Positions 13,364-34,191 of a stretch of 64,000 nucleotides of DNA are shown in pieces. The translations under genes and the position numbers were made by a program. Every line of letters starts with the position of its first letter. The stretch's first letter is position 1. The notes under the pieces are model-generated. The model saw only the letters and a list, made by a program, of their open reading frames with translations, was not told the origin of the DNA and searched no databases. The stretch covers positions 18,586 through 82,585 of the forward strand of contig JAFGDT010000058.1 of NCBI GenBank assembly GCA_016931965.1. The letters run 5' to 3'. Source of the stretch: a bacterium (GTDB lineage Bacteria; Zhuqueibacterota; QNDG01; DSAB01).

Positions 13364-15685
13364 TCATTTTTCCAAACTTACCTGGATCGCCTTCTCTGGT
13401 TTAACCGCTTGTTTTGGAATCATGTCTTTATAGATCATTCGATACATCAGATGAAGAGCGGCCAGCCATGTTAAGGTTGATTCAGCTCCCTGGTTCATAT
13501 TGACGCCGCCTCTCTGGATTCCATCATAGCAACCCCCTGTTCTGAAATCGTAGAGATATTCATGGATGTCGTTTTTGCCCAGAAACCAGGCAAAAGCCCG
13601 ATCCAATTCCTTTCGCCATCGGTTTTCATTGTCTATCTGACAAGCTTGAGCACAGGCTTCCATGATGGACAAAATTTCAACGGGCTGCTGATCGTACTGT
13701 GGCTTGACCCCTCCTTTTCTATACCAGCCGTTGTTCCCAATCAGAGAAAGGTGCTTATTATCGGGAGATGTCTGGATCTTGATGATCCAATCCAGGGATT
13801 CCAATCCGTGTTTTATCATTTTTTCATCATTCATATATTCGCCTGCAGCAATCAGTGCCTGAGACATCCTCGCGTTGGCATAGGTCACAATATTTTCAAA
13901 CCAGAGCCAATCTCCATCACAATTATGAAGATATAGGTTTAATAGCCTTTCCCCCAGATCAACCACAACACTCCTTGTTTCAGTGTCACCTCCGAAACGG
14001 GTGAGATAATATAAAGAACCCAGTATTGTGTATGACCATGCCCTTGGAGAGTTGAAATGAAGAGAGGATTTCAAACTTTGTTTAAACAATTGGTTTGCCA
14101 GACTTAAAACAGCATCGCTGGGTGCTGCCCAAATGGTATAACCCAAGCTCCAGAGCACCCGCCCGTGACTGTCTTCCGAACCCACTTCGTCCAACCATTT
14201 CCGGCTGTATGACATGAAATTGTGGAATCGCTGGATGTTCGGATTCAGAGCATGGTTGATGAAGGCTAAATAAGTATGAAGTAGTTTCAATACGTGTTCT
14301 TCCTGAAACATTTCATAATGCATGGCCGTGACCATCAAAGCACGCGCATTGTCATCAGTTGAATAACCATCTCCTCGACTGGGTGTGCGATATACAGCAT
14401 GCTGAATAATGCCTGTATCATCTGTCAGGAGCTGCAAATGTTTTAGTTTGATCTCGGGAAGAACCGGTTGACCGATAGTCTCCTGACGTTTCTGTTTGAT
14501 AATTTTTCTTCTTCCATATTCGGTCACGGATTTTTCAAAAACAGTATCATACCGGTTGGCCACCTCCTGCCAAATCATTCGTCGTCCAAATTGATATGCA
14601 TCTTTACGCATCCTGTTACATTTCGACTCGTTGGTAAGTAATTCCATTATTTTTTCAGTCAATTCCTGACTGTTTTGAAAGGGTACGAGTATCCCCCGGT
14701 TCTCTTTGAGAAGTTCTTCAGCATACCAATAGGGTGTCGAAATGATGGCCTTTCCACATGCCAGAGCATATGCCAGAGTACCCGAAGAAATTTGTTCTCG
14801 GCCAAGATACGGTGTGATATAAATATCTGTGGCGACCAAAAACTGGATTAGCCGCTCCAGTGAAACAAATCGGTTGTGAAAAACAACGTTGTTTTGAAGA
14901 CCGAGTTCTTCAACCCGGCGTTCCAGGGAAATACGGTATTTCTCGCCATAGTGCCGTTTGACATTAGGGTGTGTGGTTCCTAAAACCATATAGAGCACAT
15001 CGGGAAAATCCTTCACGACCCGGGGCAGAGCATCAATGACATATTCGATGCCCTTATTGGGATTGAGGAGCCCAAAAGTAAGCAACACCCGACGGTCTTC
15101 TGCTTGGAAATTGTCCTTATAATATGATGTATCGAGAAAAGGCACATCAGGTGCGCCATGCGGTATCATAATCATGTTTTTCTTAGAAATTTGATAGACA
15201 CGTGTCAGTATTTCAATTGCTTTTTCGGCCAATACAATGACAATATTCGAACGAGTAACAATCTCTTGTAAAGTCTCTTTTTGACTTTCTGAAGGTTCGT
15301 TTAAAACGGTGTGGAGTGTGGTCACAACAGGTTTTTCCAGCTTATCCAGAAGGTATAGGATGTGATTTCCATCGTTGCCGCCAAAAATACCATACTCATG
15401 CTGAAGGCTGACCACATCCACAGGAGAGAGATTCAAGAATTCTGCCGCCTCCCGATAATCACTTTTATACTGGTCTCGAATGACAAAATTCACTTCTGCA
15501 GGATAATCGTACCCCTCAGGAATATCATTCATTGCAATGACCTGGAAGTGGTTTTCCCTGTTTGTGCCAGTTTCCGAGAGATGTTCCAAGCTCTGAATAA
15601 GGTCATTCGTATATGTACCGATCCCACATTTCCGTGGTGGATAAGTCGAGATGAATGCAGCACTTAATGTATTTATTTTTTTCAT
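13364..15685 (-). CDS. GT4-type glycosyltransferase with a large C-terminal alpha-helical domain
   Basis: N-terminal GT-B features 'YPPRKCGIGTYTNDL', 'FGLLNPNKGIEYVIDALP', 'EQISSGTLAYALACGKAIIST'; C-terminal 'HAVYRTPSRGDGYSTDDNARALM' helical region; start at MKKINTLS preferred. Confidence 0.85.
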   Translation of the reverse strand: MKKINTLSAAFISTYPPRKCGIGTYTNDLIQSLEHLSETGTNRENHFQVIAMNDIPEGYDYPAEVNFVIRDQYKSDYREAAEFLNLSPVDVVSLQHEYGIFGGNDGNHILYLLDKLEKPVVTTLHTVLNEPSESQKETLQEIVTRSNIVIVLAEKAIEILTRVYQISKKNMIMIPHGAPDVPFLDTSYYKDNFQAEDRRVLLTFGLLNPNKGIEYVIDALPRVVKDFPDVLYMVLGTTHPNVKRHYGEKYRISLERRVEELGLQNNVVFHNRFVSLERLIQFLVATDIYITPYLGREQISSGTLAYALACGKAIISTPYWYAEELLKENRGILVPFQNSQELTEKIMELLTNESKCNRMRKDAYQFGRRMIWQEVANRYDTVFEKSVTEYGRRKIIKQKRQETIGQPVLPEIKLKHLQLLTDDTGIIQHAVYRTPSRGDGYSTDDNARALMVTAMHYEMFQEEHVLKLLHTYLAFINHALNPNIQRFHNFMSYSRKWLDEVGSEDSHGRVLWSLGYTIWAAPSDAVLSLANQLFKQSLKSSLHFNSPRAWSYTILGSLYYLTRFGGDTETRSVVVDLGERLLNLYLHNCDGDWLWFENIVTYANARMSQALIAAGEYMNDEKMIKHGLESLDWIIKIQTSPDNKHLSLIGNNGWYRKGGVKPQYDQQPVEILSIMEACAQACQIDNENRWRKELDRAFAWFLGKNDIHEYLYDFRTGGCYDGIQRGGVNMNQGAESTLTWLAALHLMYRMIYKDMIPKQAVKPEKAIQVSLEK

Positions 15686-15687
15686 AA

Positions 15688-16896
15688 TCAACCTTTCACT
15701 TTCTCCTCTTGTTCGAAAAATAAGATTTTTCCTTTTTCCAAACAGATGGTAGCGTAGAGGTACATGGCTGCCGACCATGTCTGCCAATCCTGTCCGGACG
15801 GAGATGCGTTTTGAGCTTTGTGCCATTCATTAAATCCAAAGTCAAGTTCTTGATTTCGTGAATGCCGGACCAACTCTGTCAGTGAATATAATTTTTTTTC
15901 GGCCAGCTGTTTTTGACCGGAAGCCAGTACAGCGACAATGTAAAATGCACAGATAAAGGGCCAAATACCCCCATTATGATATTCACCCGGTCTATTGTAC
16001 ATTTCATATCGAGGCCGCCAGTCCGGATCTGTGGATTGGATAAAGGGGAAAAGACAAGGCGGCAAATCACCTGAGAGCTTTCCTTTTTTACGCAATCCAT
16101 CGCATTCCCTTTCAATCCATTGAACCAGAGATTTGGATCGGGTTGGACTGGCAATGCCAGTCAGAATGGCCAGGCTGTTTCCCAATAGATCAAACCGTTC
16201 ACTTCTGTGTACTTTATAGGACCATATTGCATAATAGGGTTTATGCGGCATCACCAATCCCTCGTGAACGTGGCGGTGCTGGCGCTCGCCCCGCACGACA
16301 AATCGACTCATCAATTCTTTGAGACGAGAGGCCTTTGTATCGTATCCAAAGAGTCGGAGAACCGCATAGTAAATGGTATTGATAAAGAGACCATACCCAA
16401 GAATCCATTGTTCATCGCGCCAATCACTCGTGGGCAGTTGGGACAGGATAATTCGATCGTCGGGACTCTGATAATCCATCCAGATAAGGGCTTTTTGAAC
16501 GGCTTCGTCTAAAAAATGGATTTCTCCGGTTGCTTGACAGAAGAGGGCTGCAGCCAAAAGGAAAAGCGGTGTCGTGTCGCTGGCGCCCCGATCTTCTGGA
16601 TCATGAACAAGCGAAGGAATATGACCATGCTCGGACTGATTTTTTGCCACGGTAATCAGGACCTGTCTCAACGTGCCGATAAGCTTTTCATTCCCTGAGG
16701 CCAAGATGCCGAGTGAGGCAATCATCCAATCCCGCGTATAGGGTTCGGGGTATCCCCAACCGGCTGTTCGTGGCAATCCCTGGTAGGGACCGCGACAATT
16801 ATGAAGAAGCACATTCAAAGCGGCTGTTTTTGCCTCTTCAATTGGGACGTACCCGTTTTTCTTCAATTTAATTGATATCCAATCGTTTGGAAACAA
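15688..16896 (-). CDS. Glycoside hydrolase-like (alpha/alpha)6 protein, amylo-alpha-1,6-glucosidase/GH100-like
   Basis: 'GYPEPYTRDWMIASLGILASGNEKLI', 'YNRPGEYHNGGIWPFICAFY', 'FNEWH...SPSGQDWQTWSAAMYLYA'. Confidence 0.7.
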   Translation of the reverse strand: MFPNDWISIKLKKNGYVPIEEAKTAALNVLLHNCRGPYQGLPRTAGWGYPEPYTRDWMIASLGILASGNEKLIGTLRQVLITVAKNQSEHGHIPSLVHDPEDRGASDTTPLFLLAAALFCQATGEIHFLDEAVQKALIWMDYQSPDDRIILSQLPTSDWRDEQWILGYGLFINTIYYAVLRLFGYDTKASRLKELMSRFVVRGERQHRHVHEGLVMPHKPYYAIWSYKVHRSERFDLLGNSLAILTGIASPTRSKSLVQWIERECDGLRKKGKLSGDLPPCLFPFIQSTDPDWRPRYEMYNRPGEYHNGGIWPFICAFYIVAVLASGQKQLAEKKLYSLTELVRHSRNQELDFGFNEWHKAQNASPSGQDWQTWSAAMYLYATICLEKGKILFFEQEEKVKG

Positions 16897-18010
16897 TATC
16901 TACAAATTTTTGAGCCACAATACGGTAGTCAAAAAGCTCTACAACCCGTTTGCGGCCTGCTTCTCCCATCTTTCGGCGCAGTTCGCTGTCCTGCATCAAT
17001 TTCAGCAGATAGTCGGCAATGTCATAGATACTGGCCCGGTAATCAGCTGTTCGGGGTCTGGGAAAGAGAACTCTGTGTCCATTTTCATATCCCGATTCTT
17101 CTCCAACGATGGCCTCCCGCAGACGGATCTCCTGTGCGACACCAGCCAGGAATGCAGTTTCACTGTGTACCAGGGTATCCAGCATGGCCATGGCTTTGAT
17201 CCCGATAACCGGCTTGCCGCAGCTTCCTGCTTCCACCTGGGGCATCCCGAATCCTTCCAAACGGGAAGGGGCTGCATAGATGTCACAGGCACCGATAAGG
17301 TAGGGCATGAAATTTCTTGAAATGATATTTGTTGTGTAAACCATATTTTTTTCAATGCCCAAATCGGTGGCCAGCTGGAGATCGGACAAATTTTGTGATA
17401 CAGTACGGGGTTGCGGCCACACTTTGCACACATATTTCCAGTCCGGAACTTTGGAGTCGATCAAGCTCATTGCCTGCATGACTTCCTGTGCCCCTTTTGA
17501 GGCTGCGTCTCCCCCTACAGTCAGAATCATGATTTGATCGGGAGCCACACCGAGGGCTTCCCGTACGGCTGTGATTTTCCTGTCTGTCATATCCCGTGGA
17601 CAAAATGCGTCGGTATCGCACCCAACCGGAAGGATCTCAACGATTTCCTTTTTAATGCCATCCCTGATGTATGTGTCTCTTACCCATCTGGAAGTCACCA
17701 GTATAAGAGGAAGATTGTTTAATACATCCGCATAATTGGCGATATACCCATCAGCCACGAGCCAGGGTATGGGCTGAATGCCGTATCGTTGGGGGTGGAG
17801 AATGAGATGGGGTGTGTGTCCCCAGTAACCTACACCCACAACCACATCCGGTTCAAACCAGCGGTAATACCATTCCTTTTCCTGGGCTGATTCAAAATGA
17901 ACGGGGTGTACATCGACACCCAGATGTTTCAATCCCTTGTAGAGCAGATCACCCTGCGTGGCCAAACCGCCTGGTGAAGGCGGATAATCGTACAATACCA
18001 ATACTTTCAT
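16868..18010 (-). CDS. GT4-family glycosyltransferase
   Basis: GT-B features 'LVLYDYPPSPGGLATQGDLLYKGL', 'VGGDAASKGAQEVMQAM', 'APSRLEGFGMPQVEAGSCGKPVIG'. Confidence 0.85.
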   Translation of the reverse strand: MKVLVLYDYPPSPGGLATQGDLLYKGLKHLGVDVHPVHFESAQEKEWYYRWFEPDVVVGVGYWGHTPHLILHPQRYGIQPIPWLVADGYIANYADVLNNLPLILVTSRWVRDTYIRDGIKKEIVEILPVGCDTDAFCPRDMTDRKITAVREALGVAPDQIMILTVGGDAASKGAQEVMQAMSLIDSKVPDWKYVCKVWPQPRTVSQNLSDLQLATDLGIEKNMVYTTNIISRNFMPYLIGACDIYAAPSRLEGFGMPQVEAGSCGKPVIGIKAMAMLDTLVHSETAFLAGVAQEIRLREAIVGEESGYENGHRVLFPRPRTADYRASIYDIADYLLKLMQDSELRRKMGEAGRKRVVELFDYRIVAQKFVDIVSKRLDIN

Positions 18011-18657
18011 AATCTGTCTTCCAATTTTGTTTTTTGTATTTGATGACGATTTTCTCTGTTAAAATGCCAGTAGGCTTCGACTCTCGGTGTTGTTCGAGCC
18101 TCCCAGCTATCCGGTGTAAATCCGTATACTTCGGTAATCAGGCGATATTTTTTCTGCCAGACATCGTCTGGCAGCTCAAACTGTATCGGAGCACCCGCTG
18201 CGGCTTGGGGCAAGTTCGCCCCTTCGTTATCCTGATATGCAAACAGCCAGAGTTCGGCAGCATCAATTTTCCCCTCTTTCCAGAGGGTCTGTACAGCTCT
18301 TGAAGTTTCTTCGTGCCTTCGATGTCGGGTGTATTCGCCTTGGGGGCCGTGAGAGATGAGAAGGTCGTAATGATCCTGGCCTGTCCAAGTCAGTATTTGA
18401 TTTTGGATATCGCTTCCGGAAAGCGGCTCTTGTTCGGGGCCGTCATCAAGGTCGGCCATTTCTCCTTTAGCATTTAACATGGATAGCGCTTTCAAAAATT
18501 TTGGGGCTCGATCCGGATCGGAGGCACGGCACAGTGTATAAATTTTCCATAACCAATCGGGATGCATGATAATCAATCCGCCTGCCCAAAGTGTTTCATC
18601 ATCCGGATGGGCTACGAGAATACATGCTCTATGAAGTATATCCCTTTTATGTTTCAA
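18007..18657 (-). CDS. PIG-L/LmbE-family deacetylase-like protein
   Basis: 'ILVAHPDDETLWAGG' and 'YDLLISHGPQGEYTRHRRHEETSRAV'. Confidence 0.85.
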   Translation of the reverse strand: MKHKRDILHRACILVAHPDDETLWAGGLIIMHPDWLWKIYTLCRASDPDRAPKFLKALSMLNAKGEMADLDDGPEQEPLSGSDIQNQILTWTGQDHYDLLISHGPQGEYTRHRRHEETSRAVQTLWKEGKIDAAELWLFAYQDNEGANLPQAAAGAPIQFELPDDVWQKKYRLITEVYGFTPDSWEARTTPRVEAYWHFNRENRHQIQKTKLEDRL

Positions 18658-18838: not shown

Positions 18839-20689
18839 ATGGCTATTAATGTCAAAAGAATACCGGTTCGTTTTTCTCCTGATCCAAAACGTGTTATCAC
18901 ACATTTTTTTATGCCCGGTGATGAAGAAAGGGCCAGACAAATTATAAAAAAAATACTGGACATGTCCGATGAAGAACACCGTATGATACTCAATCAGACG
19001 TTACGGGATTTCTCTCGTCGTCACCGGAACATCACACGAATTTTTGAAAATAATTTCAATAACGTCCGACACGTTCTCAATAAGACAAATATCGATGCTG
19101 ACACTTTGTCTAAAGAAAAAAAGCTTGTCATTGGCTCCTATTTTACCAAAGAATATTCCATTGAATCGGCAGCTTTTTTTAATCCCTCCATTGTTGAAGA
19201 TCCTTATCAATTGAATCTGTCAAACGGCCAAAAAAGGGTGATCGTTAGTTTTCGTGCCACAGGCGAAGGACACATCTCGTCGATTACTTTTCGGAGTGGC
19301 ATCATTGACAAGGACAACAATCTGGTTTTCAAAACACCCAGTGAGCTGGTTGATGTGCCTGAGATTGTGACCCGTCATGTCTATCAGAAAGCCCTTTTTC
19401 TCCGTAAACTTGATGAGATGCGAATCAAAAAAGATGTTATTAAAATGGTTATGGATCAGCTGAACGAAGAGTTTGTCTATGGAGAACTCCAGGCAGCCAT
19501 AGCCAAGGTCATGAAGCAAGACCTTTCTTTTACAAGTGAAAAAGTTCTCCACGCTATCAACTGGCTTGCCACCTCTCACTATGAAGTCACCTTCTCTATG
19601 GACACAGCACTCTCTGAGCGGGTTCTGTTTCCCGTATCCTATACAGAGAGCAACGGCATTGAAGATGCCCGATTTGTCCGTTTTACAAATGATGGTGAAC
19701 GTATTACTTACTATGCCACTTATACAGCATATAATGGATTCGCTATTCTTCCCAAGCTTATTGAAACCGAGGATTTCTACCATTTTAAAGTTCAGCCAAT
19801 AAACGGAGAATATGCACAGAACAAAGGGATGGCCCTTTTCCCGCGAAAAATTGATGGTCAATATACCATGCTCTCCCGTATCGATGGCATCAACAATTAT
19901 GTGATGTTTTCCGATGAGATCCATCTCTGGCGTCATGCTGAAAAAATACAAGAACCGATGTATCCGTGGGAATTGGTTCAAGTAGGCAATGCAGGATCGC
20001 CTATTGAAACCGATCAAGGATGGCTCGTTATTACCCACGGTGTGGGTGTCATGCGCACCTACTGCCTGGGTGCTGTTCTTCTGGATCTCGATAAACCCAC
20101 ACGGCTCATTGGACGTTTGAAGGAGCCCCTGCTTGTTGCCAATGAGGAAGAGCGTGCGGGTTATGTGCCGAATGTCGTCTATTCCTGTGGTTCCATTGTT
20201 CATAACAATGAGCTGATCATTCCCTATACGATGTCCGACTATGCTTCTGCCTTTGCTGTAGTGTTGCTGGATGAACTGCTCCACGAATTGCGTCCTCGAT
20301 TGTCCCGTAAAAGAAAGCAGAAATCGGTTGGAGATGAACATTCCATACTGTTGGTGGAAGATGATGCCGTGACTCGGGAAACGATCCATCAAATTCTCAT
20401 GAAAGAAGGGTATCAGGTGGAAGTTGCCTCCGACGGTATCGACGCACTGATGCATGTTGCGCAGGAGCATTTCGATTTAATCATCTCCGATATTCGCATG
20501 CCCAACCTGGACGGTTTTCAGTTGTTGGAAAAGATGAATGAAAAAAAGATTCACATTCCGGTTATACTGATTACAGGGTATCATAATCACGAATATCAAT
20601 TGAAGAGTAAAAAACTGGGCGCTGTCGATTATATCAAAAAACCTATTAACAGGAAATTGCTTATAGATAAATTAAAAAAATTGTTTTAA
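18839..20689 (+). CDS. GH130-like beta-mannoside phosphorylase/hydrolase fused to a C-terminal response-regulator receiver domain
   Basis: 'SNGIEDARFVRF', 'GMALFPRKIDGQY', 'VGNAGSPIETDQGWLVITHGVGVMRTYCLGAVLLDL', 'EERAGYVPNVVYSCG' (GH130 style), then 'HSILLVEDDAVTRETIHQILMKEGYQVEVASDGIDALMHVAQEHFDLIISDIRMPNLDGFQLL...ILITGY...DYIKKPI' (REC). Confidence 0.88.
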   Translation: MAINVKRIPVRFSPDPKRVITHFFMPGDEERARQIIKKILDMSDEEHRMILNQTLRDFSRRHRNITRIFENNFNNVRHVLNKTNIDADTLSKEKKLVIGSYFTKEYSIESAAFFNPSIVEDPYQLNLSNGQKRVIVSFRATGEGHISSITFRSGIIDKDNNLVFKTPSELVDVPEIVTRHVYQKALFLRKLDEMRIKKDVIKMVMDQLNEEFVYGELQAAIAKVMKQDLSFTSEKVLHAINWLATSHYEVTFSMDTALSERVLFPVSYTESNGIEDARFVRFTNDGERITYYATYTAYNGFAILPKLIETEDFYHFKVQPINGEYAQNKGMALFPRKIDGQYTMLSRIDGINNYVMFSDEIHLWRHAEKIQEPMYPWELVQVGNAGSPIETDQGWLVITHGVGVMRTYCLGAVLLDLDKPTRLIGRLKEPLLVANEEERAGYVPNVVYSCGSIVHNNELIIPYTMSDYASAFAVVLLDELLHELRPRLSRKRKQKSVGDEHSILLVEDDAVTRETIHQILMKEGYQVEVASDGIDALMHVAQEHFDLIISDIRMPNLDGFQLLEKMNEKKIHIPVILITGYHNHEYQLKSKKLGAVDYIKKPINRKLLIDKLKKLF

Positions 20690-29542: not shown

Positions 29543-29938
29543 TTATCCTTTTGATACCAATTTTGTATGTCGCTCTTTACTGATGAGCCGTTTCAGACTG
29601 GAAATCATCGCACTGATCTCGAATGGTTTTTGTAAATAGTCATCTGCACCCAGCAAATAGGCATTTCTTTTTGTTAAAATGTTGGAATACGAAGTCATTA
29701 CAATGATGACGATATTGTCATCTATCTGTTTGATTTTGTTCATCAGTTCACGATTATTTTCGTCTGACATTTTCATGTCTATGATAACGATTTTTGGTTT
29801 CTTCTGACGGATCATATTGAGAACGCTCTCGGACCGGTTATATGTTGTGATTGAAAAATCCTGGGCGGATAACACCTTCTCGAAGGCTTTGAGTACACTT
29901 TGATCATCATCAATCACAACGATACCGTCCTTCACCAT
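29543..29938 (-). CDS. Stand-alone response regulator receiver protein
   Basis: CheY fold 'IVVIDDDQSVLKAFEKVL...KIVIIDMKMSDENN...VIVMTSYSN...DDYLQKPF'. Confidence 0.85.
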   Translation of the reverse strand: MVKDGIVVIDDDQSVLKAFEKVLSAQDFSITTYNRSESVLNMIRQKKPKIVIIDMKMSDENNRELMNKIKQIDDNIVIIVMTSYSNILTKRNAYLLGADDYLQKPFEISAMISSLKRLISKERHTKLVSKG

Positions 29939-31279: not shown

Positions 31280-32698
31280 TTATAATGAATCTTTTTTAGT
31301 TACAACAGTTGCAATGTCAATGTTATATTTTTGAATCCTGTTTATAAGCATTGTTCGTGAAATGCCAAGGATTTTGGCCGCCTTAACCTGATTTCCCTTT
31401 GTGTGATGCAAAACCTTCTGTATCAGATTGGACTCGGCATCCGACATGATTATATCATGGAGTTTACCCTCGTGCATAGAAATGAGTTTATCTAAGGGAG
31501 TACTATTTCCGACATCTTTCTGATCTTTTGATTCTGTAAGATGGTCTTCTATAGACTCCTCCGAAATGACATTTCCTTTGCAAAGAACGATGGCACTCTT
31601 AATAAAATTTTCCAATTCTCGAATATTTCCCGGCCATGAATGCTGAAAAAGCCAATTTCTTGCCTCAGAAGATGCTGTGATTTTTTCACCACGCAGGGGG
31701 ATACTGTATTTCTTAAGGAAATGCTCAACCAATTCGGGGATATCTTCACGTCGCAACCGAAGTGGAGGGAGTGTCATGGTCACTACTTTTATTCGATAAT
31801 ACAAATCTTCTCGAAACCGGCCTTCAATTATTGCTTTTTCAAGATTTCTGTTTGTTGCAGCAATAACGCGCACTTCCGTATGGAGCGTCTGTTCCCCACC
31901 CAATCGCTCGAAACACCCCTCCTGCAAAACGCGAAGTATTTTTGATTGTGTGGATAATGACATGTCTCCGATTTCATCCAAGAATATCGTACCACCGTGG
32001 GCCTGCTCGAATTTTCCGATTTTACGACGAACGGCACCTGTGAAGGCTCCTTTCTCGTAACCAAAGAGCTCGCTTTCTAAAAGCGTCTCTGGTATTGCGG
32101 CACAATTCACAGCAAGAAATGGTGCTTGCGATCGTTTGCTGTGCTGATAAATTGCCCGTGCAATGAGTTCCTTGCCTGTTCCACTTTCCCCTCTAATGAG
32201 TATATTAACATCACTTTCAGCAACACGGCCTATCATTTTGTATACTTCCTGCATGGCAAGGCTGTTGCCGATGATGCGATCGCCCATTTCATCAGTGGAT
32301 CCGTTTCTTTCAATGATGACATTTGTTTTCATTTGATAACTGCATAAAAGAGCGTCATCGATTAATTTTTTCATAGCGGGGATATCGAAAGGTTTTTGAA
32401 TGTAATCGTAGGCACCGGCTTTTGTGGCTTCAATGGCAAGATCCGTTGTTCCGAATGCCGTAATAATGAGCACAACTGCTTTAGGATCGGAGGTCTTCAT
32501 CTGGCGGAGGACATCCAATCCCATAATATCGGGAAGATGAACATCCAGAATGATCAAATCATAATTTCCCTGTTTGAATTTTTGAAGTGCTTCTGAACCG
32601 TTTTTAGCGGATTCAACCTGGTATTCAGGCTCTTTTAAAAACCGTTCGAAGGAATATCTCACACTTTTTTCGTCATCAACTATAAGTATTTTTCTCAT
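31280..32698 (-). CDS. Sigma54-dependent NtrC-family response regulator
   Basis: REC + AAA+ (GESGTGKE, GAFTGA, 'GGTIFLDEIGDMS') + Fis-type HTH 'NQVKAAKILGISRTMLINRIQKY'. Confidence 0.93.
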   Translation of the reverse strand: MRKILIVDDEKSVRYSFERFLKEPEYQVESAKNGSEALQKFKQGNYDLIILDVHLPDIMGLDVLRQMKTSDPKAVVLIITAFGTTDLAIEATKAGAYDYIQKPFDIPAMKKLIDDALLCSYQMKTNVIIERNGSTDEMGDRIIGNSLAMQEVYKMIGRVAESDVNILIRGESGTGKELIARAIYQHSKRSQAPFLAVNCAAIPETLLESELFGYEKGAFTGAVRRKIGKFEQAHGGTIFLDEIGDMSLSTQSKILRVLQEGCFERLGGEQTLHTEVRVIAATNRNLEKAIIEGRFREDLYYRIKVVTMTLPPLRLRREDIPELVEHFLKKYSIPLRGEKITASSEARNWLFQHSWPGNIRELENFIKSAIVLCKGNVISEESIEDHLTESKDQKDVGNSTPLDKLISMHEGKLHDIIMSDAESNLIQKVLHHTKGNQVKAAKILGISRTMLINRIQKYNIDIATVVTKKDSL

Positions 32699-34191
32699 GC
32701 CATCTCGACTTTTGTTTGTGGTAAAAAAATCGTGAAAATTGCACCCCCTTTTGGATTATTCTTCGCGACAATCCAGCCATGGTGATTCTGAATAATTTGA
32801 TTGGTGATGGAGAGTCCTAAACCCATACCACTCTCTTTTGTAGTAACAAACGGATTGTAAATCGAATCCTTTATCTCATCAGGTATACCATGTCCCGTAT
32901 CTTCGATTGATATTCTAAATACGGTTTCTGCCCGGTTGGGGAGCCGAATGTTGGCGGTTTTGATTGTAAGGCGTCCCCCTTTTTCCATTGATTGAATTGC
33001 ATTGAGGATAATGTTAATCAAAACCATCTTTAATTGTTCCTCATCTCCCCAGATGGTTGTATCATCCCTATCCAACTTTTGAGATAATCGGATGTGATGG
33101 TTTCTTAATTGTGGGTCAAGGAGCGTCATGGTACTTCGGATAAGATTGTTCATTTGAATTGAAGTGAAGTTTGGAATAGGAGGGCGTGCGAAATCAAGAA
33201 AAGCCTGCAATAGTTTTTCAATGCGCATGATTTCCTCAACAATGACCTGAAAGTCTTGTTTCTTTTCAGATTCGTTACCCATTTCTTTTTGCAGGGAAAA
33301 AATAAGCATTTTAATGGCTGTCAATGGATTGCGTATTTCATGGGCCAGACCAGCTGACATCCGTCCTAAGGAAGCCAAATGTTCCGATCGCATCAGCATC
33401 TTTTGACTCTGTTCTAGATCCTGGTTGGTTTGTTTGATCTTCTCGACGAGATCCATAACGAAGTGGTTTAAATTTTCGATTTCAGAAACTTCCGCGACAT
33501 CCACTTTTTCGACAACCGCTTCACCAGTGGCGCTCTTTATCTTTAAAACAAGTTCGGTTATCGGATGGAGTATACTGCGCGCCAGAACCAGTCCCAGAGC
33601 CAATCCGGCAATAACACCGATAATGCCTATTCCTACCATAATCTGGTTGATTGAACTGTTGTCTTTCGATATGGATAGACTGGTTTGGTTCATTAGGATT
33701 TCATTAAGGAGCAAGAGTTCTTCACATTGATTATAAATATCATTAAATGAATCTCGCATGTTATCGATTAATATTTTTTCTGCAAGATCAGGTTGATGTG
33801 ACTGAAATAACCGTTCAACCTCTTCTTTATATTTCAGGTACTCCTGAAAAGTCTCATCGATTTTCTTAAGGATAGTGACTTCCTTTTCGACATGGGTTCG
33901 CTTTTGTGCACTGTCAAGCCAAGTGTAAAATGTGATTTTTTTCTCATCAAAAATATCGAGCCATTGATTGTTTCCATCCAACAGGTAATAACCCATCAAT
34001 CCTTTCATATCCAAAAGGGCAATTTCCAGCTCTTCGGCTGATTTTAAACTGGTAACATTTTCTGCGAGAATACGCGTTGAATTCCGTTGCATCCGATTTG
34101 TATATAGAATTGCCAGAATACTGACAATAATCAGCAATCCACTCATCGCTGAAAAACCGATAAGCATTCTAGGGCGGATTCTAAGTTTCAC
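32695..34191 (-). CDS. Membrane sensor histidine kinase (HAMP-HisKA-HATPase)
   Basis: 'MSAGLAHEIRNPLTAIKM', 'NIILNAIQSM', 'DTGHGIPDEI', 'GMGLGLSI'. Confidence 0.92.
   Translation of the reverse strand: MKLRIRPRMLIGFSAMSGLLIIVSILAILYTNRMQRNSTRILAENVTSLKSAEELEIALLDMKGLMGYYLLDGNNQWLDIFDEKKITFYTWLDSAQKRTHVEKEVTILKKIDETFQEYLKYKEEVERLFQSHQPDLAEKILIDNMRDSFNDIYNQCEELLLLNEILMNQTSLSISKDNSSINQIMVGIGIIGVIAGLALGLVLARSILHPITELVLKIKSATGEAVVEKVDVAEVSEIENLNHFVMDLVEKIKQTNQDLEQSQKMLMRSEHLASLGRMSAGLAHEIRNPLTAIKMLIFSLQKEMGNESEKKQDFQVIVEEIMRIEKLLQAFLDFARPPIPNFTSIQMNNLIRSTMTLLDPQLRNHHIRLSQKLDRDDTTIWGDEEQLKMVLINIILNAIQSMEKGGRLTIKTANIRLPNRAETVFRISIEDTGHGIPDEIKDSIYNPFVTTKESGMGLGLSITNQIIQNHHGWIVAKNNPKGGAIFTIFLPQTKVEMA

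Follow-up and report, generated by a model that had tools for sequence, protein, structure and literature searches.

A complete receiver domain fused to a long-form GH130 enzyme: a recurrent bacterial architecture and candidate switch on mannose-glycan turnover

In this study, we analyzed a 64,000-nucleotide stretch of bacterial DNA (the window) and found in it a gene that joins a GH130 carbohydrate-active enzyme to a receiver domain. The fusion is real and recurrent; it combines known kinds of protein, namely a GH130 enzyme and a response regulator with enzymatic output, and does not found a new category. Our findings support, with a probability of roughly 0.5, a model where the protein is an orphan response regulator whose long-form GH130 output, predicted to act on beta-mannosides, tunes the turnover of an intracellular mannose glycan.

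The gene (18839..20689, + strand) is a single open frame of 616 amino acids plus stop, uninterrupted as the earlier note had read it, and occurs once in its own genome. Its ATG is preceded, 6 nt upstream, by AGAGGG, a plausible ribosome-binding site; a scan for promoters and terminators gave no excess over shuffled sequences. Both domains score well above the curated Pfam cut-offs: PF04041 (Glyco_hydro_130) matches residues 258-482 (E 2e-30, 106 bits against a gathering cut-off of 26), placing the protein in GH130 by profile, and PF00072 (Response_reg) matches residues 503-612 (E 3e-30, 105 bits against 30.2). In NCBIfam the top GH130 models are mannobiose phosphorylase types, with scores below their equivalog cut-offs. 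In an AlphaFold (AF2) model the GH130 part is predicted to form a propeller and the receiver to be complete and well folded, with a disordered linker (488-499) between them. From the N-terminus, all on the + strand, a helical extension specific to the long-form subfamily (residues 1-98, 18839..19132; AF2 helices 29-40, 44-58 and 65-81; conserved R7, R18, R61 and H62) is followed by the first propeller strands (99-177, 19133..19369), where N115 and R139 occupy, by alignment and spacing, the -1/+1 sugar-binding positions of GH130 (roles from PMC4599007). A helical insert (178-247, 19370..19579), missing in shorter relatives such as those at loci L033-L035, precedes the Pfam core (258-482, 19610..20284), which holds E275-D276 (catalytic Asp at 19664-19666), K329, R347, Q381, H400, R406, Y408 and D467. 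A variable linker (485-501, 20291..20341; pLDDT below 50 at 488-499) then leads to the receiver (502-616, 20342..20686), with E507/D508, D551 (20489-20491), T579 and K601. The GH130 region had been placed at about residues 1-490: the Pfam match bears this out for 258-482, but residues 1-257 lie outside it, being conserved across the long-form subfamily and carrying the propeller residues N115 and R139 together with subfamily-specific helices. The receiver motifs are complete as claimed, except that the acidic pair is E507-D508 (then D509) and not DD.

The same fusion was found in 29 genomes besides its own, three in the window's phylum and most others in Bacteroidota, giving a total of at least 30. 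In the same order, two further genomes carry it, with 65% and 57% identity, and in another family of the phylum it is present at 59% in a fourth genome (G046; locus L124). A scan of GTDB representatives returned at least 80 loci with at least 26 full-length fusions among the matches listed, nearly all labelled Bacteroidota, with hosts such as Maribacter algarum, Polaribacter and a Chitinophaga MAG; these 26, with the window, L027 and L028, make up the 29 fusions aligned below, and L124 is the thirtieth. Most of the long-form GH130 subfamily lacks the receiver: the fusion occurs in 4 of the 24 subfamily-positive genomes among 82 searched in its own phylum, and in 2 of 47 in a draw of 396 Bacteroidota genomes, one of the two being the Maribacter genome chosen as its centre. 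In the plasmid collection, matches were to standalone long-form GH130, except perhaps for the one record above 80% query coverage (Neorhizobium, in two pieces, to query residue 505). At L057, on a contig labelled Verrucomicrobia, the fusion was placed deep within the Bacteroidota group, pointing to lateral transfer or mis-binning. Our literature search, whose coverage left out subscription journals and preprints and in which absence is not proof, returned no paper coupling GH130 with a receiver; the one paper that mentions all the terms treats them separately. The suggestion that this is not a standard architecture stands as far as the papers searched go, but the protein is not a one-off.

That an assembly or frameshift artefact merged two genes is extremely improbable. 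The own genome is a 140-contig draft, which leaves room for such an error, yet at least 29 further assemblies show the identical junction, among them contigs of more than 700 kb from Maribacter algarum and Polaribacter, and the frame has no internal stop. A frameshift or join near position 20330, named in the earlier note as what would undo the reading, is refuted by full-length fusions in independent assemblies at 51-65% identity and by strong purifying selection on both halves.

The enzyme half (residues 1-485) belongs to a long-form GH130 subfamily (about 485 aa, 43-70% identity in the sampled set) that bears the helical N-terminal extension and the helical insert and usually lacks a receiver. 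Across 29 fused and 58 standalone members, N115, R139, E275, D276, K329, R347, H400, Y408 and D467 are invariant, D276, at the catalytic Asp position, in 87 of 87. These correspond, D276 by alignment and the others by spacing from published numbering, to sugar-binding and catalytic residues of BT3780 (PMC4599007), and include, again by spacing, the Lys linked there to beta-1,2 specificity. Among solved structures, the protein comes nearest by sequence and fold to the beta-1,2-mannan phosphorylases Teth514_1788/1789 and Lin0857; Foldseek ranked Teth514_1788 first (GH130 fold match E 7.5e-23), and the matches listed were GH130 chains or receiver chains only, none spanning both domains. Phosphorylases place three basic residues at the phosphate, where hydrolases have a Glu pair (PMC4599007). 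Of this basic set, as placed from sequence and not from a structure, R347 and H400 are kept, and in [KR]xG the basic position is taken by Q381 in 28 of 29 fused and 54 of 58 standalone long-form members. Every other GH130 aligned has K or R there: three paralogues from the same genome, Teth514_1788, Lin0857 and, at related loci, the short GH130 genes. Long-form members carry in addition the invariant residues N384 and R406, the latter an extra conserved basic residue. Neither R347 nor Q381, the positions suggested by spacing from the published numbering of BT3780, is Glu, and by this placement the protein lacks the Glu pair that marks GH130_NC. On its residues, the long form appears to match neither the phosphorylase nor the beta-1,2-mannosidase pattern exactly. 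The earlier assignment of the enzyme to GH130 is right as to profile, fold and catalytic residues, but phosphorylase activity is not fully supported, with Q381 in place of K/R.

Given Q381, phosphorolysis may have been lost, and it is conceivable, though we incline against it, that the long form is a hydrolase or a mannosyl transferase/synthase, with that activity under receiver control. The near-constant glutamine where relatives have K or R, the extra N384 and R406, and a relative in the PDB named a mannoside synthase (Uhgb_MS) speak for such a change; R347, H400 and K329 are nonetheless kept, the top fold and sequence matches are phosphorylases, and there is no counterpart of the beta-1,2-mannosidase Glu pair, which spacing from published residue numbers puts at or close to R347 and Q381 (PMC4599007). 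This alternative is compatible with the model of an orphan regulator, which commits to no chemistry.

The receiver retains its phosphorylation machinery. All 29 aligned fusions keep the acidic pair (E/D-D), D551 as acceptor in the motif SD[IV]xMP, T/S579 and K601, which rules out a degenerate domain; by profile, fold and these residues it is a response-regulator receiver, apparently complete and phosphorylatable, and it is C-terminal in every aligned fusion. Purifying selection is strong on both halves: dN/dS (Nei-Gojobori, three unsaturated pairs) is 0.03-0.08 for the receiver and 0.03-0.04 for GH130. In a tree against a small outgroup sample drawn from the same genomes and loci, 30 fused receivers and one long-branch intruder group apart from 39 others (SH-aLRT 98). 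This grouping and the recurrence of the fusion rule out a recent one-off event. On the GH130 tree the fused state needs four changes; forcing fused members into a single clade did not give the best tree but was not clearly rejected (AU p 0.089). A single ancient fusion, with later losses and/or lateral transfer, would be the simplest history, a tentative reading given the small outgroup sample.

A cognate kinase was sought by sequence motif with Pfam confirmation. No histidine kinase is adjacent to the fusion in the window, and of the 29 fused loci just two have one directly upstream in the same direction, a PAS/PocR histidine kinase at L048 and a PAS/GAF histidine kinase at L075, from two related lineages; beyond these two no conserved adjacent kinase was found. 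Elsewhere the upstream genes are unrelated (for example histone deacetylase/GNAT, PspC, aldehyde ferredoxin oxidoreductase, H+-pyrophosphatase, sulfatase); at L043:7107-8846, the upstream gene itself fuses a histone-deacetylase-like domain to a GNAT acetyltransferase. The window also holds, about 10 kb from the fusion, an NtrC-type response regulator and then a four-helix-bundle histidine kinase (31280-34191, - strand), and a lone receiver at 29543-29938. Control of the fusion by a histidine kinase, proposed in the earlier note, is something we infer.

Upstream of the fusion, on the opposite strand, its divergent neighbor is a PIG-L/LmbE-like deacetylase (18007..18657, - strand), and further upstream are a 380-aa GT4 glycosyltransferase (16868..18010, -), 72-77% identical in eight Bacteroidota loci, and a 402-aa GH100/amylo-alpha-1,6-glucosidase-like protein (15688..16896, -). 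In those eight loci the LmbE/GT4/GH100-like set, at 50-77% identity, stands beside a standalone long GH130. In L027 (genome G004) the GH100-like homologue is only 231 aa (L027:10278-10973), possibly truncated or frameshifted. The next gene (13364..15826, -) encodes a GT4 glycosyltransferase that carries an all-helical domain at its C-terminus (GT4GH). This gene recurs as a genomic partner of long-form GH130: 23 of 29 fused loci contain it, as do 31 of 61 unfused ones. Its model predicts a GT-B glycosyltransferase followed by the all-helical domain, and the top PDB match, the GDP-mannose-using PimB', suggests a mannosyl donor. Where fused loci bear it, GT4GH abuts the fusion directly, mostly tail-to-tail, except in L027 and the window; in the window it is divergent and 3 kb away, so that the pairing there is looser. 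The genome holds a second GT4-plus-helical-domain protein (G000:C114; L037:1-3137), whose gene has a 4-nt overlap with a short GH130 gene, an arrangement recurring in other loci. A GT4 glycosyltransferase fused to a mannose-6-phosphate-isomerase-type cupin lies beside GH130 genes at L030:12650-14002, and at L123 (G000:C42) a further GH130 neighbors a gene that looks, by eye from its sequence, epimerase-like, as in plant-mannan catabolism.

Overall, we suggest that in the cytoplasm the GT4 protein would build a glycan containing mannose, either a reserve or a precursor for the envelope, and that the GH130 part would trim or reversibly phosphorolyse it. A histidine kinase encoded elsewhere would phosphorylate Asp551, shifting the receiver between two states and so altering enzyme activity, oligomeric state or partner binding; the outcome would be a fast post-translational switch on glycan turnover. 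The data show the architecture, its conservation, the selection on it and its gene associations; we infer His-Asp phosphorylation, its consequences for catalysis or assembly, and a mannose glycan as the substrate. The presence of both domains, the intact receiver and GH130 residues, the purifying selection, the grouping of fused receivers, the nearest solved structures, the well-folded receiver of the model, the GT4GH neighbor and the kinases at L048 and L075 suggest such a regulator, whereas the scarcity of adjacent kinases, the flexible linker, Q381, the many receiver-less subfamily members and the looser GT4GH pairing in the window count against it.

The linker bears on how a receiver might act. 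Being variable and disordered, it offers no evident rigid coupling path; if the model is right in this, it argues against a coupling helix and fits control through dimerization or partner docking. One rather unlikely alternative takes docking as the whole function: phosphorylation would govern localization or binding to the neighboring GT4 protein or another complex, with GH130 catalysis unchanged. A flexible, variable linker, the close genomic pairing with GT4GH and a receiver that is C-terminal in every fusion would all suit it, yet standalone GH130 genes pair with GT4GH too, in about half of the unfused loci, so that docking needs no receiver. More doubtful still is that the receiver is a passive hitchhiker, such as a phosphate sink or a stability domain, leaving the enzyme unaffected. 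The subfamily does function without it, and the four changes on the GH130 tree, with the AU result above, allow several gains or losses; a passenger would, however, hardly keep its phosphorylation residues in all 29 fusions under strong purifying selection across distant lineages.

Response regulators act mostly on DNA or second messengers. With intact switch residues in at least 30 genomes, the fusion indicates that bacteria may put mannose-glycan turnover under direct control of signaling kinases. It could, at somewhat less than even odds, represent an undescribed response-regulator class whose phosphorylation acts as a direct switch on a GH130-type enzyme, so that the turnover, or reversible synthesis, of an intracellular mannose glycan made by the neighboring GT4 enzyme would come under immediate two-component control; equally tentatively, such a switch would be akin in logic to the phospho-control of glycogen phosphorylase, but through His-Asp signaling. 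If true, a receiver wired into a carbohydrate-active enzyme ties environmental sensing to glycan metabolism without transcription. The GH130-GT4 pairing in several phyla likewise points to an uncharacterized mannose-glycan pathway.

Among known systems, Teth514_1788, Teth514_1789 and Lin0857 share with the fusion the GH130 five-bladed propeller and the G-[IL]-E-D, NK, FPxK, R, H, Y and D motifs, but are 303-363 residues long, lack the helical extension, the insert and the receiver, and have K/R where the fusion has Q381. The GH130_NC beta-1,2-mannosidases BT3780 and BACOVA_03624 have the same fold, a Glu beside the catalytic Asp and a Lys at the beta-1,2-specificity position (PMC4599007); their Glu227/Glu268 pair is not found in the fusion, which has R347 and Q381 at or near those positions, and the fold match is weaker. 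The invariant catalytic Asp of the family is D142 in BT3780, D104 in Uhgb_MP and D276 in the fusion. Enzymatic response regulators such as the diguanylate cyclase PleD, whose receivers are the top PDB matches to that of the fusion, likewise join a complete receiver to a catalytic domain, but the fusion differs in its carbohydrate-enzyme output, its C-terminal receiver and the lack of an adjacent cognate kinase. Also related are the standalone long-form proteins, some 485 aa in length and carrying the annotation "glycoside hydrolase family 130 protein", for example in Ilyobacter polytropus and Marinilabilia; they are 43-67% identical over residues 1-485 and have the same active-site residues, but no receiver. 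The enzyme thus exists in nature both with and without the receiver, and comparing the two directly can reveal what the receiver does.
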